The position numbers were made by a program, and so were the translations under genes. A stretch of DNA of 64,000 nt from Bacillus sp. es.034. GTDB lineage: Bacteria > Bacillota > Bacilli > Bacillales > Bacillaceae_B. Of the stretch, positions 1,685-64,000 are shown piece after piece; position 1 is the first letter of the stretch, and each line of letters begins with the position of its first letter. Where the stretch lies: contig NZ_PDIY01000001.1 of NCBI RefSeq assembly GCF_002563655.1, positions 4,084,501 to 4,148,500 on the forward strand. Reading direction: 5' to 3'. A model generated the notes under the pieces. It worked only from the letters and a program-made list of their open reading frames with translations. It was not told the origin of the DNA and ran no database searches.

Positions 1685-2617
1685 TTAATTCGGTTCAATG
1701 GCCAGAGCGATCGCTTTTATTCGGCATTTAATATCAAGCGATCCTTGTACACCCGTTACCTCAACAAGCTCCACCGGGTTCCCCAGATATCTAAAGCCGC
1801 TTTGTGGCAGCCAGTAGCTATACAGTTCTGAGTAACATTCAATCAGCATGCCCCTGTCCTCATAGTCGACAGGGCCTGGAAACTCATATATTACATGCTT
1901 GCCTCCCGAAAAATGATTGAGGTCTTCGCCCGATATGCTTAGATCCTTAACTGCCAGGCGGCATTCGTACCTGTTTTTATCTGCTGGGGTAATGTAGGGA
2001 TTACTCTTTGGAACTCCGAATAGTAATGGACTTCCCTTCATCAGATTTCTTGCATTTCCCCAATGATAGAGGTCTCGCCACGCCCCAGGGATTCCCTCTT
2101 TATAGGAACCTGTATGATATCGATTGATGGTGGTACACTCAGGTAACTCGGCAACCTTCACTTCAGAAAGATCCAGCCATTTAAATCCATTATAGGATTC
2201 TCTCATTTGGAATGCTTTCGGATTTGTGCTGAATGTTTTAGATTTCTTGCTATTCATATATTCCCGTGGAAATCGCTCTAAATATGCACCCTCCCTCCAA
2301 CTTTTCGGATTACTGTGGAAATACGAATTAAACGAATAGGTGAAATAAGATAACGAAGCGAATCCATTTATCATGGCAACTTCTGTAACAGGGATTTCAG
2401 GATCATATATCAGCATATGTGCCGCGTTCTCAAGCCGGATCCGTTTCACATATCCGGCAGGGGTTTCACCGATGAACCCTTTAAACAATCGTTGAAAATG
2501 ATAGGGCGAATAGGTAGATACTTTGGCAAGTTGTTCTAACGATAAATCTTCTGTTAAATGTTGATCTATGTAATCAATAACTTTATTAATCCGTTTTTGC
2601 TGGTCACTGTAGGTCAT
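1685..2617 (-). CDS. AraC family regulator with GyrI-like effector domain
   Basis: Transcription factor of 310 residues. Residues about 5-105 form two AraC-type helix-turn-helix motifs (SPYHFQRLFKGFIGETPAGY and SLSYFTYSFNSYFHSNPKSW are recognisable). Residues about 150-310 look like a GyrI/AraC_E_bind small-molecule binding domain (MarA/Rob-like architecture). The ATG at 2617 has GAGAGG upstream and fits the usual N-terminus; 13 extra in-frame residues upstream lack a binding site. Its target may include the membrane protein just downstream. Confidence 0.85.
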   Translation of the reverse strand: MTYSDQQKRINKVIDYIDQHLTEDLSLEQLAKVSTYSPYHFQRLFKGFIGETPAGYVKRIRLENAAHMLIYDPEIPVTEVAMINGFASLSYFTYSFNSYFHSNPKSWREGAYLERFPREYMNSKKSKTFSTNPKAFQMRESYNGFKWLDLSEVKVAELPECTTINRYHTGSYKEGIPGAWRDLYHWGNARNLMKGSPLLFGVPKSNPYITPADKNRYECRLAVKDLSISGEDLNHFSGGKHVIYEFPGPVDYEDRGMLIECYSELYSYWLPQSGFRYLGNPVELVEVTGVQGSLDIKCRIKAIALAIEPN

Positions 2618-2759
2618 GTCAATTCCTCTCTTATCTTTATAAAAAAACACTACCATACCTTCATGTTGAATAAGATGGGTGGATCTCCCATTTTATCATA
2701 AATAGCCTCATCCAAAGGAAGTCTATGATAAAATAATACCGTTCACAATTTAATCATTG

Positions 2760-2940
2760 CTCATTGGTGAAAATGATTTCGGGTCATTTTCTTAAAAGGG
2801 AAGTTGGTGAAAATCCAACGCGGTCCCGCCACTGTAAAGCTGAGATTTCATATGTATCCACTGTTTCACGTCGGAATGGGAAGGAGTATGAAATTGGAGA
2901 CGCTTAAGCCAGGAGACCTGCCAAGCTGAGAAGAACACAT
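2760..2940 (+). ncRNA. Cobalamin riboswitch aptamer
   Basis: Contains the conserved cobalamin-aptamer blocks in order: AAAAGGGAA, GGTGAAAATCC, CGGTCCCGCCACTGT and AAGCCAGGAGACCTGCC. The closing helix can form between CTCATTGG (2760-2767) and CCAAGCTGAG (2931-2940). It is followed by a 16-codon reading frame, a terminator and an acyl-CoA thioesterase gene on the same strand. Confidence 0.93.
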
Positions 2941-2974
2941 AAGTTCCTACGGGAGATAGGAGGGTGTTGCGCAT

Positions 2975-3025
2975 ATGAAACGTCATACAGGGAACCAAGA
3001 GATCCTGGACGCTCGTTTGGAGTAG
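2975..3025 (+). CDS. Possible 16-codon leader ORF between riboswitch and terminator
   Basis: ATG at 2975, stop TAG at 3023, encoding MKRHTGNQEILDARLE. AGGAGGG lies 10-11 nt upstream. The stop sits 3 nt before the terminator stem, a position that would let translation affect terminator folding. It could equally be chance within the expression platform. Confidence 0.25.
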   Translation: MKRHTGNQEILDARLE

Positions 3026-3027
3026 CT

Positions 3028-3062
3028 GCATCTTCTTTTCACAAAGGAAGATGCTTTTTTTT
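3028..3062 (+). terminator. Riboswitch-associated intrinsic terminator
   Basis: Stem GCATCTTC/GAAGATGC extended by TTT/AAA, followed by eight T. It lies 88 nt after the aptamer and about 35 nt before the thioesterase start, as expected for a transcriptional cobalamin switch. Confidence 0.85.
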
Positions 3063-3096
3063 GTTTCGCCATTATACAATCAGGGAGATGAATAGA

Positions 3097-3570
3097 TTGG
3101 AACAAGTTTATTCTATTGAGCGTTCACGAACCGTCCAAACCAGATTGGTACTACCACCGGATACCAATCATATGCAGACAATCTTCGGGGGAAAGGTATT
3201 GGCATTTATCGATGAAATCGCTGCACTGTCAGCCATGAAGCATTCGAGTTCTGTGGTGGTCACGGCTTCGATCGATTCGGTCGATTTCCTGTCATCCGCA
3301 ACTGTCGGGGACGCACTCAGCCTAGAGGCGATTGTAACTTCCACGGGAAGGACTTCGATGGAGGTGTATGTAAAAGTTTTCTCTTCGAATCTATTGACAG
3401 GTATCAAAACCTTGACGACGGAATCATTCCTTACCATGGTTGCGGTGGATGAAAACGGTAAGCCGAAACCGGTGCCGAAAGTGATACCGGAAACAGAAGA
3501 GGAGAAGCGATTGTTCAAATCAGCTGTTCTGAGGAAGGAACATCGTAAAAACCGGGCATTGATAAAATAA
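3097..3570 (+). CDS. Acyl-CoA thioesterase (hotdog fold)
   Basis: Hotdog-fold acyl-CoA thioester hydrolase, about 157 residues, of the YciA/Acot type. Motifs are VLPPDTNHMQTIFGGKVLAF with the central helix, and a basic C-terminus typical of Bacillus members. The start is uncertain: the ATG at 3088 abuts GGGAG with no spacing, whereas TTG at 3097 is 9 nt from it, so TTG is preferred. Only about 35 nt separate the riboswitch terminator from this start, leaving no room for an own promoter, so expression probably depends on riboswitch read-through. The acyl substrate is unknown. Confidence 0.85.
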   Translation: MEQVYSIERSRTVQTRLVLPPDTNHMQTIFGGKVLAFIDEIAALSAMKHSSSVVVTASIDSVDFLSSATVGDALSLEAIVTSTGRTSMEVYVKVFSSNLLTGIKTLTTESFLTMVAVDENGKPKPVPKVIPETEEEKRLFKSAVLRKEHRKNRALIK

Positions 3571-3576
3571 GTTTAT

Positions 3577-3602
3577 AGGTATGAACAGCACGCTGTTCAT
3601 AC
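3577..3602 (+). terminator. Hairpin after thioesterase gene
   Basis: Perfect stem GGTATGAACAG/CTGTTCATACC around CACG, followed by CTTTATT. It lies between convergent genes and may work for both. Confidence 0.75.
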
Positions 3603-3626
3603 CCTTTATTCACAATAAATATTGTC

Positions 3627-4988
3627 TTACCAGTAAAAGAAAACCGAGCAGATGATGACGGCGATCCATGCTGCGGATGACCAAATTCCTGCCCGCATTA
3701 AGTCCTTGTCGGTAAAATAACCGTACGAGTAGCTGATCAGATGAACCGGGGACTGGGTGACGAGAAAAAAGCCCGGGACGCATGCCAGGAATACCGGCAT
3801 GGCAATTTGCATGGGTGATAAACCCGGGATTGTGTGCCCAATCGTGATGCTGAGAGGGAGCATGATGGTCAAAAACCCCAGGATATTGACGAATACGATC
3901 CGAATAATACTCGTACATAAGATGAGGAGCAGGATGATCACCCAGGATGGGCGGCCAGTAAGTATAGAATTCAACCCTTCTGCCATCCATTCAATCGTCC
4001 CTGTCTCGACCAGCATCCCTGATACCATCAGAGTAGAGGCAAAAAAGAGCATCAGATCCCAATCAATGGATTCCCGCGCTTCTTCCCACTTCCATACTCC
4101 CGCAAAAGGAATGACGGTCATACATGCGCCCAGAAGGCCAACCTGAGGAATGGAATATCCATGCAGAGGCTGTGCAATCCACAGGATCAACGTTCCTCCG
4201 ATGATACACATGATTTTCTTTTCATTGATGCCGACCGGCCCAAGCTCACCGATTCTTTCTTCGATCAATGCCAATAACAGCTTTCGTTCAATCTTCTCAG
4301 GGGGAAAGATCATTAAGAATATTCCCCACAATATCACGATAAAAAGCAGCACCGGTATTCCAAAAATAAGGAACCATCTTATATAATTCAGATCGCTTGA
4401 AACATCGCTCAGGATCCCGAAAGCGTAGATAGTGGAACTGGCCCCAGTCGCGACAAATGACCCTGAAATGGCAGCCAGATAGGCAACCCCTATAAACAGC
4501 GACTTGCCCAGATAATGGACATCCGCTATTTTTCGCAGACTTTTCATCAGGCTGTCGAGTACCGATGATAACAGGCTGCCCTTCCCTACATTCGACGGTA
4601 TCAGGACAGACAGGACAGTCATGAGCAGAAACGAAATGAAAATCAACGCTTTCCCAGACCCTCCAGACAGCTTTAACATATAGAGCGATACCCTGCTTGC
4701 CAGACCGGTTTTGATGAATGCAGTTGAGATAATGAATGTGGAAAACAAGAGCCAAACAATACCCGAACTAAAATATCTCAAAGTCTGTTCATAACTGAAA
4801 AAATGAAACGATATCAGCAATATAAGCAGCAGCGAACTGAACGCAAGAGGAAATACTTTGCCGATCCACAGGATTTGTATGATGATGAGTGCAGCGATAG
4901 CCTTCCATGTTTCATCCCATTCAAAAAATGGGAGAAAGAATAAGGCATATAATAGAAACGTGATAACCAGTAACAGTTGTTTTCTCAT
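3627..4988 (-). CDS. SLC13/DASS-type anion carrier
   Basis: Polytopic membrane protein of 453 residues with about 11-12 helices, of the SLC13 (divalent anion:Na+ symporter)/ion transporter superfamily. Recognisable are IPSNVGKGSLLSSVLDS near residue 130, GSFVATGASSTIYAFG near 180 and a second repeat with FVNILGFLTIMLPLSI. The ATG at 4988 is chosen because GGGAG lies 8 nt upstream. Placed next to the tricarboxylate genes, it may carry a di- or tricarboxylate, but a terminator separates it from tcuA and the substrate is not shown. Confidence 0.8.
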   Translation of the reverse strand: MRKQLLLVITFLLYALFFLPFFEWDETWKAIAALIIIQILWIGKVFPLAFSSLLLILLISFHFFSYEQTLRYFSSGIVWLLFSTFIISTAFIKTGLASRVSLYMLKLSGGSGKALIFISFLLMTVLSVLIPSNVGKGSLLSSVLDSLMKSLRKIADVHYLGKSLFIGVAYLAAISGSFVATGASSTIYAFGILSDVSSDLNYIRWFLIFGIPVLLFIVILWGIFLMIFPPEKIERKLLLALIEERIGELGPVGINEKKIMCIIGGTLILWIAQPLHGYSIPQVGLLGACMTVIPFAGVWKWEEARESIDWDLMLFFASTLMVSGMLVETGTIEWMAEGLNSILTGRPSWVIILLLILCTSIIRIVFVNILGFLTIMLPLSITIGHTIPGLSPMQIAMPVFLACVPGFFLVTQSPVHLISYSYGYFTDKDLMRAGIWSSAAWIAVIICSVFFYW

Positions 4989-5016
4989 GACGATTACTCC
5001 CATCTTTCAATCAAAG

Positions 5017-5046
5017 GAAAAAGCCACCGGCGATGGGGTGACTTTT
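5017..5046 (-). terminator. Terminator after tcuA
   Basis: Stem AAAAGTCACC/GGTGGCTTTT around CCATCGCC, followed by CC and TTT on the minus strand. It ends the tctCBA-tcuA transcript before the SLC13 gene. Confidence 0.75.
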
Positions 5047-5064
5047 CCTTTTCATCAATAACTG

Positions 5065-6579
5065 TCAGTGAATGATCGTTGAGTCCTGTTTATTGCCAAG
5101 GGCATACCGGGCAGCTGAAGAACCGGCTGTTTTCCCATATACAGCCCCGGACATCAATCCCGATCCTCCAGGATAATTGTGATAAAAAATACCGCCGACC
5201 ATTTCTCCAGCAGCGAACAGGCCGGATAGTGGTTGATCATCTTTTTTTAACACCTCACCTGAAGGATTGACCCGGAGTCCCCCAAATGAAAACGTAATGC
5301 CGCACGTAACCGGGAATGCATAGAATGGCCCCTTTGCGATCCTCAATGCCCAGTTCGTCTTTTCTGGTGTAAGCCCTGCTGTTTTCTTGCCGTCTTTTTC
5401 CGTAGGATTGTATTCCCCGTCTTGAACGGCTGCATTATATTCCTCAATCGTCTGCAGGAATTGCTTCTTGTTAACGGAAAGCTGATTAACAAGCTCCTCC
5501 AGGGTTTCACCGTTGTAACAGGTCGCTTCCTCAAGATCATATTCCTTCCTGAGCAGTGGACGAACTTGAGAGTCGTAAACCTGATAGGCGACATGATCAG
5601 GTTGTTTCAGGATTTCCCTCCCGTACTTTGCGTACGTATAATTCCGGAAATCCGCACCTTCGTCTACAAATCGTTTTCCATCTTTATTCAGCATGATGCT
5701 GAGGGGATAGGAATGTTTCTTGAAGATGTCACCGGGTTTTTTAAAGTCACCGACTTTCGGTGCATGATAATCTGTGCCGATTGAATGACAGCCGGAGTAT
5801 TCACCAAACTTCTCCGCTCCTGCCGCAACCGCCATTGTAATCCCGTCCCCTGTGTTATATTCGGTTCCGCGTACGATTGCCGCTTCCCATTCTTCCCCGA
5901 TTTGTTGTTTCCGAAGCTTTTTGTCTGCTTCAAAACTGCCGCAGGCAAGAATGACACCTGTGGATTCAACGTTGATCCTCTCCTCATCCTTCTGTACAAC
6001 CACACCGCTTATCTTTCCGCCTTCTTTTACAAGCTCCACTGCAGCAGCCTCATACCAAATATCGATACCCATTTCCCCTGCACGGGAAAAAAGCTGCTTC
6101 ATCAACCCGATGCCTTTGTTTTCCGTCTTGATCGGAAGACCTCCCCAGAAATGCCGCTTGCCTTCCTTTTCATAAGATTGATTATCATAATTGAGTTCGA
6201 ATTTCACTCCGTGCCCCTTCATCCACACGAGCGTTTCAAACGAGCGGTCCACCAGTTGTCTGGCAAGCTCCGGCAGACTCTCCCCTTCTGTTACGCGCAT
6301 GATATCATCATAATAATCTTCCTCATTGTAGTCGGGCATGACGATTGTATCCGCTTCTTCCTCAGAGAGATCCGTCACGACCTTCCGAATATCTGTGAGA
6401 TCATGATAGGCCACCCGAATCGCTCCATCGGTGAAAAATGAATTTCCGCCTCTTTTATGTTCAGGACCTTTTTCCAGGACCAGTACTTCCGCACCTTCTT
6501 CACGGGCTGAAATGGCCGCACATAAGGCTGCATTCCCCGCTCCAACGACAACTACGTCGTATGAGTTCTTTTTTGACAT
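5065..6579 (-). CDS. tcuA: FAD-dependent tricarballylate dehydrogenase-like TcuA
   Basis: Flavoprotein of the fumarate reductase/succinate dehydrogenase flavoprotein family, 504 residues. The N-terminus has the dinucleotide motif VVVVGAGNAALCAA; C-terminal GGLRVNPSGEVL and GLFAAGEMVGGIFYHNYPGG are typical of TcuA, which oxidises tricarballylate to cis-aconitate. It follows tctA by 15 bp and is the last gene of tctCBA-tcuA. In Salmonella TcuA is re-oxidised by the Fe-S/haem protein TcuB; no tcuB is seen in the window, so the electron acceptor here is unknown and the substrate assignment rests on family and context. Confidence 0.85.
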   Translation of the reverse strand: MSKKNSYDVVVVGAGNAALCAAISAREEGAEVLVLEKGPEHKRGGNSFFTDGAIRVAYHDLTDIRKVVTDLSEEEADTIVMPDYNEEDYYDDIMRVTEGESLPELARQLVDRSFETLVWMKGHGVKFELNYDNQSYEKEGKRHFWGGLPIKTENKGIGLMKQLFSRAGEMGIDIWYEAAAVELVKEGGKISGVVVQKDEERINVESTGVILACGSFEADKKLRKQQIGEEWEAAIVRGTEYNTGDGITMAVAAGAEKFGEYSGCHSIGTDYHAPKVGDFKKPGDIFKKHSYPLSIMLNKDGKRFVDEGADFRNYTYAKYGREILKQPDHVAYQVYDSQVRPLLRKEYDLEEATCYNGETLEELVNQLSVNKKQFLQTIEEYNAAVQDGEYNPTEKDGKKTAGLTPEKTNWALRIAKGPFYAFPVTCGITFSFGGLRVNPSGEVLKKDDQPLSGLFAAGEMVGGIFYHNYPGGSGLMSGAVYGKTAGSSAARYALGNKQDSTIIH

Positions 6580-59639: not shown

Positions 59640-60698
59640 TTAGTTCCTGAACCAATCCGCCCCCTCATCCATATGAACAAACGGAATATCAGTATCCACT
59701 TTGCCTGTCATTTTTTCCTGTTCAACATCCTTCCCCTTTAGCCATTCGGCAAAATCGAAGATAACAGGCTCCCGGTCTCCGCCAAGGGCAAACCATGCTT
59801 TCATTTCTTTTGGAAAATAAGCTGATGTATGAATCGTGCCGGCCCAACTGCCGTAAAGATCCGAGAATACCCCTTTATCACTGTCATTCATTAATCGGAA
59901 GGCCCTATGAGCGTCTTGATCACCCGATTCCTTGATGATGCTCAATCGTCGCTTGGAATCGACCAGGTGATTTCGGTTCTCATCGGTCATGATTTCAAAA
60001 TGATTGGTGCATGCATTGGATTGCCTTACCTCCACCCCACGAGGTGAGGTTTCCACTATAAACGTTTCCCCGCTCCTGTCATACACGACATAGCTGAACG
60101 AATGCCTATGAGGGATTTCCTTCAACATATCGACGGCTTCGGTACCATCTTTACAGGATTCAAGGATCAATCGTCCGATCATACAGCAAATGAAACCATC
60201 TCCGGGATTTTTCCGGTGCATGAAGTTATACCCCAGTGCCAGGCCATGTTCGTTCATTCCGTCCATCCTGCCGGTCACACGCTGACTTGGACCGATGATG
60301 GCATATCCTGTATCCGTCGGTTGAAAGAACGTATAGCGTCCCTCATACGTTTTCGGATGATAATCATAATTCCTGATCAGATAGTCTGTACCCGTTACGA
60401 TCGAGCAGCCGGACTTCACATAATCCACCCGGTAGCCGCCAAACTCCTTCAGCACCCGCTCCATCGGCCACTTGAGGGCTTCTTGTAACCCCAGGAGTTC
60501 ATCCCAGAGGCCTGGGGCAAATCGATTGATTGCTCCCTTTGTTTCCTCAACGCTGATGGAGAAGCGGGGCTTACGTACTTTCCATTGATTTTCCCGATTT
60601 CTAACCGTTATGGAATCCTTTATCCGTTCCCCTTGCATAAATCCGAAGTCATAATGGGAACCGCGAAATTGAACCACATCGCTATGTATTGTTTTCAT
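59640..60698 (-). CDS. C45 autoproteolytic acyltransferase/hydrolase
   Basis: Penicillin acyltransferase-like (C45) family, 352 residues. The self-cleavage nucleophile is Cys98 in KSGCSIVTG, followed by LIRNYDYHP. GRMDGMNEHGLALGYNF is also typical. Ntn-hydrolase that acts on an amide bond; substrate unknown. GAGGT precedes the ATG. Confidence 0.85.
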   Translation of the reverse strand: MKTIHSDVVQFRGSHYDFGFMQGERIKDSITVRNRENQWKVRKPRFSISVEETKGAINRFAPGLWDELLGLQEALKWPMERVLKEFGGYRVDYVKSGCSIVTGTDYLIRNYDYHPKTYEGRYTFFQPTDTGYAIIGPSQRVTGRMDGMNEHGLALGYNFMHRKNPGDGFICCMIGRLILESCKDGTEAVDMLKEIPHRHSFSYVVYDRSGETFIVETSPRGVEVRQSNACTNHFEIMTDENRNHLVDSKRRLSIIKESGDQDAHRAFRLMNDSDKGVFSDLYGSWAGTIHTSAYFPKEMKAWFALGGDREPVIFDFAEWLKGKDVEQEKMTGKVDTDIPFVHMDEGADWFRN

Positions 60699-62962: not shown

Positions 62963-63637
62963 ATGATATCGATTCTTGTCGTTGATGATGATCCCCATCT
63001 GCGAAAGCTCGTCCGCGTTTATTTGGAGCAGAATGGATACCTGGTGACAGAAGCACCGGATGGCGAAGCTGCTTCCGTCATTCTTCTCCATCAAACCATC
63101 GACCTTGCCATTATCGACCTGATGATGCCGAATAAAGATGGATTTCAGTTGGCAAGTGAGATAAGGGAAGACTATGATATCCCCATCATCATGCTGACTG
63201 CGAGAGGCAGCATCACGGATAAAGCGAAAGGATACCAGTCCGGGACCGATGATTATATGGTGAAACCCTTTGAGAAAGAAGAACTCCTTTTCCGGGTGCA
63301 GGCGATCCTGAGACGATTCGACCGGGCAGGTTCCCAAACCGTCCGCTTGGGAGACATGACGCTTGATAAACGGTCTTATGAGGTGAAAGCCGGGAATAGG
63401 ACCATGATTCTTCCCCTCAAGGAATTCGAACTGCTATATTATCTTGCAAGCTTTCCAAACAGGACATTTACGCGGGATGAACTTATCCAGCATGTATGGG
63501 GAATTGACTTTGAAGGGGACGACCGGACCATCGATGTGCATATTAAACGACTGCGTGAACGTTTCCGGGGTTCCGCCAATACCTTCACGATCACGACCGT
63601 ACGGGGAGTCGGCTACAAATTGGAGGTACCTAAATGA
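62963..63637 (+). CDS. hssR: OmpR-family response regulator, HssR-like
   Basis: Protein of 224 residues. Receiver with phosphoacceptor Asp52 (AIIDLMMPNKDGF) and Lys in MVKPFEKEEL, then a winged helix (TRDELIQHVWG, FEGDDRTIDVHIKRLRERF). Close in layout and sequence to S. aureus HssR, which senses haem stress with HssS and induces the HrtAB exporter. GAGGTG precedes the ATG. The stop overlaps the next start (ATGA). Confidence 0.82.
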   Translation: MISILVVDDDPHLRKLVRVYLEQNGYLVTEAPDGEAASVILLHQTIDLAIIDLMMPNKDGFQLASEIREDYDIPIIMLTARGSITDKAKGYQSGTDDYMVKPFEKEELLFRVQAILRRFDRAGSQTVRLGDMTLDKRSYEVKAGNRTMILPLKEFELLYYLASFPNRTFTRDELIQHVWGIDFEGDDRTIDVHIKRLRERFRGSANTFTITTVRGVGYKLEVPK

Positions 63638-64000
63638 AAACCCTTTATATCCGGATCGTCGTCGTCACCTTGTTGATCATGGTCGTAAGCAGCGTGATTG
63701 CGTTTATCGGTTCGAACCTTTATTATCAATTGATTTTAAAGCCTTCCAATGATGAAAAGAACACCGAAATCGCCCGGGACGTTGTGGAACTTACGGTCCT
63801 GGACCAAATTTCCATGAAGGTAAACAGCGGGGAATTCGGGGCGATACTCGGCCCGTCCGGTTCGGGGAAAAGCACCCTCCTCTCCATCATCGGGGCATTG
63901 ACCAGCCCCACAAGAGGTGAGGTGACTCTAAACGGAAGAAATGTACATGATATGACAGGAAAAGAACAAACGGCTCTTCGCCTGAAGGAAATCGGCTTCA
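63634..64000 (+). CDS. In-frame chimera: HssS-like kinase N-terminus fused to HrtA-like ABC ATPase, cut by window edge
   Basis: Starts as a sensor kinase: MKTLYIRIVVVTLLIM with one membrane helix and SNLYYQLILKPSNDEKN, like HssS. After about residue 50 (IARDVVEL) it continues without a frame break as an ABC ATPase from just before the Walker A: LDQISMKVNSGEF, GPSGSGKSTLL, SPTRGEVTLNG, LRLKEIGF. The kinase sensor, HAMP, HisKA and HATPase regions and the ATPase N-terminus are all missing. The frame is open to the window end. Best explained by a deletion between hssS and a downstream hrtA-like gene, or an assembly join. Confidence 0.8.
   Translation, partial: MKTLYIRIVVVTLLIMVVSSVIAFIGSNLYYQLILKPSNDEKNTEIARDVVELTVLDQISMKVNSGEFGAILGPSGSGKSTLLSIIGALTSPTRGEVTLNGRNVHDMTGKEQTALRLKEIGF

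Follow-up and report, generated by a model that had tools for sequence, protein, structure and literature searches.

An open reading frame at the right-hand end of this DNA begins as the haem-sensor kinase HssS and continues, with no stop codon in between, as the haem-exporter ATPase HrtA. This raises the question of whether it is a new gene, an assembly error or the remnant of a damaged locus. The window is the whole stretch of 64,000 nucleotides that was analysed, and it comes from the genome of Bacillus sp. es.034 (G000). An earlier, sequence-only reading of the window had offered a loss of regulation, a new constitutive arrangement and an assembly artefact as options. With a probability of about 0.92, we read the feature as a deletion scar of ~2386 bp in a haem-sensing and haem-export locus, which has left the fusion inert or degraded and the response regulator HssR orphaned. 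The features in the window are as follows.

62963..63637, + strand: hssR, an intact OmpR-type response regulator of 224 aa with Response_reg and Trans_reg_C domains.
63634..63792, + strand: hssS remnant, codons 1-53 of 456, 96% identical to the HssS of locus L016 over 52 residues.
63790..63792, + strand: deletion junction placed by the blastn pieces, a CTT codon that fits both HssS L53 and HrtA L21.
63793..64000, + strand: first part of the hrtA remnant, from codon 22; it extends to G000:C1:4148982 and has lost the hrtA stop.

The frame is open from 63634 to 64000 on the + strand and overlaps the stop codon of hssR through an ATGA. Beyond the window end it reaches 282 codons in total (L003:1635-2483, which is G000:C1:4148134-4148982). 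The composition described earlier, an HssS-like start followed without a stop by an HrtA-like ATPase with its Walker A motif, directly after hssR with the ATGA overlap, was confirmed, and the switch lies at codon 53. The HssS part is 96% identical over 52 residues to HssS of Rossellomorea vietnamensis NBRC 101237 (L016), and a 196-residue stretch of the HrtA part matches HrtA of the same strain at 96% identity; these identities rule out a chance resemblance of the two halves. From hydropathy, the hssS remnant encodes a single hydrophobic helix (residues ~8-28), followed by the start of the predicted extracellular domain. Pfam places an ABC_tran domain at residues 56-204 of the whole frame (E = 9e-39) and finds no kinase domain in it, so the suggestion that the kinase output domains are gone holds. 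The ABC motifs Walker A (GPSGSGKST), signature (LSGGEQQR) and Walker B (LILADEP) are all kept.

The nearest named matches to the locus are records of R. vietnamensis, R. aquimaris and Bacillus sp., and by sequence similarity its host is placed in Rossellomorea and the locus nearest to R. vietnamensis. In R. vietnamensis NBRC 101237 the same genes flank the locus on both sides, with a DNA identity of 92% and 89% on either side of the junction, and this strain holds the 2386 bp missing from the window genome. Its gene order is hssR (L016:1788-2462), hssS (2459-3829, 456 codons), hrtB (3881-4939, 352 codons) and hrtA (4941-5594, 217 codons), which supplies the intact hssS of about 450 codons that had been suggested as a check in relatives. 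L016 is identical in sequence to G019 over the 4.5 kb compared, and seven loci (L016-L021 and L090, the last from G025) show the order hssR-hssS-hrtB-hrtA in open frames. In L016, Pfam assigns HAMP, HisKA and HATPase_c domains to hssS and an FtsX domain to hrtB. Among solved structures, hrtB matches chain 7w78_B (E = 1.8e-31) and hrtA matches 7w78_A (E = 9.8e-48, among 604 distinct sequences, the best of which is MJ0796 with E = 6.8e-52). The structure listing names 7w78 only as a putative ABC transport system; we take it to be the haem exporter HrtBA of Corynebacterium diphtheriae.

The relatives' locus thus resembles the HssRS-HrtBA system of S. aureus, B. anthracis and other Firmicutes, with its kinase, FtsX-type permease, ATPase and, ahead of hrtB, a GTTCAT-N5-GTTCAT direct repeat. 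The window genome shares with this system an intact HssR, an OmpR-type regulator with receiver and winged-helix domains that is 93% and 95% identical to those of G019 and G025 (both with the full locus), and fusion residues 1-53, which match an HssS-type kinase; it differs by the deletion of the kinase body, repeat, permease and ATPase N-terminus. The hrt locus is patchy across the genus: this type of HrtB is present in 14 of the 35 other genomes, 4 have only a distant one (32-39% identity), and 17 have none at E ≤ 1e-40.

Aligned by blastn, the window genome follows L016 up to L016:2617 and resumes at L016:5001, the two pieces overlapping by 3 bases, so that 2386 bases are missing at the junction relative to L016. 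Both pieces were found in 14 of the 35 other genomes of the genus, at a spacing 2383-2387 bases greater than here, which bears out the supposed internal deletion in an HssRS/HrtBA-type locus. In all 14, an HrtB frame of 74-100% identity and free of internal stops lies between the pieces. When a 356-base query across the junction was run against 36 genus genomes (own included), an end-to-end match was obtained in the window genome alone. Such a singleton would also be produced if the strain carried the full locus and the assembler had dropped 2.4 kb, the artefact that the sequence-only reading had allowed for. We nevertheless consider this very improbable. Going by L016, only 2-3 bases (CT or CTT) are common to the two breakpoints and no repeat lies at them, which makes a real deletion likelier than an assembly collapse. 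In addition, the contig is single and chromosome-sized (4,514,426 bases, 4.51 Mb; completeness 100, contamination 0.13), the missing DNA does not turn up at another place in the assembly, and a second lesion, the lost hrtA stop, sits in the same gene.

Direct repeats of 11 and 8 bases occur near the breakpoints (within 150 bases), but both lie away from the junction sites themselves; in L016 the 11-base repeat begins 87 bases inside the left breakpoint and 17 bases short of the right. A repeat-mediated deletion was therefore rejected. No inverted repeat of at least 8 bases was found in the same range. Relocation of the 2.4 kb within the genome was likewise rejected, as the missing stretch has only two weak matches elsewhere in G000, of 62 and 181 bp. 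We suggest that ~2386 bp were lost from the standard hssR-hssS-hrtB-hrtA locus of a Rossellomorea near R. vietnamensis, joining hssS codon 53 to hrtA codon 21, most simply via illegitimate recombination. The joined ends would have fallen in the same frame by chance, an outcome expected in one case out of three, giving the frame of 282 codons.

The deletion removed hssS codons 54-456, all of hrtB and HrtA residues 1-20. In G000, HssS finds a match at high identity (94%) over residues 1-54 alone, all other matches being kinases at ≤43%; no full-length hssS was found anywhere in the genome, and beside hssR there is no kinase with two TM helices, HAMP, HisKA and HATPase_c. The proposal that HssR was left without its kinase is upheld by this result. 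HrtB gave no match in G000 at E ≤ 1e-3, so the FtsX-type permease of an HrtBA pair is missing, while the positive control detected HrtB at 74-100% identity in 14 genomes of the genus, including the genome that supplied the query. Following the sequence past position 64000, as had been proposed, thus yielded the rest of the ATPase but not the HrtB permease, and no permease gene lies 3' of the fusion frame. The deleted HrtA residues form an N-terminal strand and include TKTY, aligned with TKTYK of MJ0796, a segment that presumably holds the adenine-stacking tyrosine. The other end of the ATPase is altered as well: the hrtA stop, kept in 7/7 relatives read, was lost in the window genome in a separate, second change, and the frame ends in 33 foreign residues, encoded by the hairpin region that follows hrtA and by the antisense strand of the next gene. 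A complete HrtA of ~217 residues is thus absent, with the first 20 residues gone and 33 foreign ones at the end.

Whether the fusion could work depends in part on its topology. HssS starts with a short N-terminus in the cytoplasm, crosses the membrane in a first TM helix and then forms an extracellular domain, which in S. aureus spans about residues 35-168 (PMC11237747). Hydropathy shows one helix only in the fusion, and since the junction at residue 53 falls within the HssS extracellular domain, the ATPase part is predicted to lie outside the cell. With the permease gone, the first 20 residues missing and the HssS topology placing the ATPase outside, a working membrane-anchored ATPase is unlikely. 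The earlier ideas of a membrane-anchored exporter ATPase or a new constitutive arrangement find no support, as hrtB is deleted and the ATPase has lost both its first 20 residues and the hrtA stop. We propose instead that the fusion would be transcribed with hssR and translated through the old ATGA coupling, that the HssS signal anchor would carry the ATPase part across the membrane, and that, with no permease there, the product would be inert or degraded. Most likely the fusion does nothing useful and looks like ordinary gene decay.

A functional product, either a membrane-anchored ATPase serving another permease or a new regulator within the hssR transcript, might be argued from the 282-codon open frame, the retained Walker A, signature and Walker B motifs and the preserved ATGA overlap with hssR. 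We regard this as highly implausible, given the loss of HrtA residues 1-20 with TKTY, the single hydrophobic helix followed by what is extracellular in HssS (PMC11237747), the absence of HrtB from the genome, and the 33 C-terminal residues taken from the post-hrtA hairpin region and next-gene antisense. There is also no second case, either in the best 120 of 1387 protein matches or in the 35 other genus genomes. A known domain-fusion family was rejected on the same search, as a 110-residue query found no HssS-HrtA join in the best 120 of 1387 matches. There, HssS homologues covered 48% of the query and close HrtA proteins 53-54%, with a maximum of 70% for two 240-residue ABC ATPases; the absence of other fusions from the protein collection is weak evidence, as our own fusion is not among the matches listed. 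In the open-licence literature, as represented by titles and the starts of abstracts, no report of the scar or of a fused hssS-hrtA was found, and kinase-ATPase fusions returned nothing related.

The scar is probably recent and, with kinase, repeat and permease all gone, probably one of lost function. On its own branch, hssR has 7 nonsynonymous to 12 synonymous codons versus 13:24 on two sister branches (p = 1.0), and the hrtA part has 4:10 versus 4:39 (p = 0.09), counting only codons at which the two sisters agree. By these counts, substitution rates do not prove decay, and hssR appears to be without a sign of relaxed selection. Two of the four nonsynonymous hrtA changes are common to P0001, the nearest listed intact HrtA (98% identity, a normal 217 residues), and likely predate the deletion because an intact protein shares them. 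R94, F172 and L237 in the HrtA part of the fusion differ from P0001; all 13 HrtA alignment rows have S at 94 and Y at 172, and L016, outside those rows, also has R at 94. That the counts do not prove relaxed selection and that P0001 is so similar and of normal length together suggest a recent deletion.

The deletion also bears on what HssR can do. A direct repeat, GTTCATCTTCCGTTCATACT, is found in the hssS-hrtB gap (L016:3829-3884) in 12/12 Rossellomorea-type loci read, two of which (L023 and L030) have it with one base different. Searched in 61 genomes, the exact repeat pattern gave 15 matches, each no more than ~70 bases upstream of an hrtB; they comprise 12 of the 14 intact loci and G001, G002 and G018, which have a more distant hrtB. 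The known HssR repeat resembles GTTCATCTTCCGTTCATACT in its letters. From its place and this resemblance, the repeat before hrtB is the likely HssR box, and its linkage to hrtB (15/15 exact matches in 61 genomes) makes it useful for annotating likely HssR sites in the genus. In B. anthracis, HssR acts via a direct repeat in the hrt promoter, according to PMC3968170. The repeat was removed by the deletion, and a search for its exact pattern gave 0 matches in G000. Without this exact repeat in the genome, HssR has no apparent output.

Within the scar reading, HssR is very probably an orphan, with neither a cognate kinase nor an hrtB target site, and inducible HrtBA-type haem tolerance is predicted from the gene content to be lost. 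In vitro, HssR is a substrate of the kinase HitS in B. anthracis (PMC3968170), and by analogy another kinase might in principle phosphorylate the intact HssR here. A regulator sharing 52% identity with HssR is encoded, together with a kinase, next to ABC-transporter genes of the window genome (about C1:1904000-1907560; L095, G000:C1:1904000-1910500), and the likeness of these genes to HitRS of B. anthracis is one of layout only. It would surprise us greatly if the fusion had taken on a new role as an HrtA-like protein anchored in the membrane, or if HssR took phosphate from the HitRS-like kinase (G000:C1:1906437-1907555) to act on new targets. On the preferred reading of a deletion scar, the strain is a natural carrier of an orphan HssR, and its own sensitivity to haem can be set against that of close relatives. 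The case also cautions annotators that a deletion scar can take the form of an open frame in which two well-conserved pieces of protein are joined; beyond annotation its significance is small.

A few observations concern the surroundings of the locus. The gene after the fusion frame is a convergent ORF, which the fusion frame overlaps; it has no Pfam match at E ≤ 1e-3 and no match in G025 at E ≤ 1e-30, and it is split in two at G021:C2:123200-124221, G001:C1:114363-115372 and G035:C1:4058326-4059175. In G025, hrtA is followed by a 456-codon frame (L090:5157-6527), which by eye we take to be a transposase. Upstream in the window, 59640-60698 on the - strand matches Pfam AAT (E = 8.6e-67), the acyl-CoA:6-aminopenicillanic acid acyl-transferase family.
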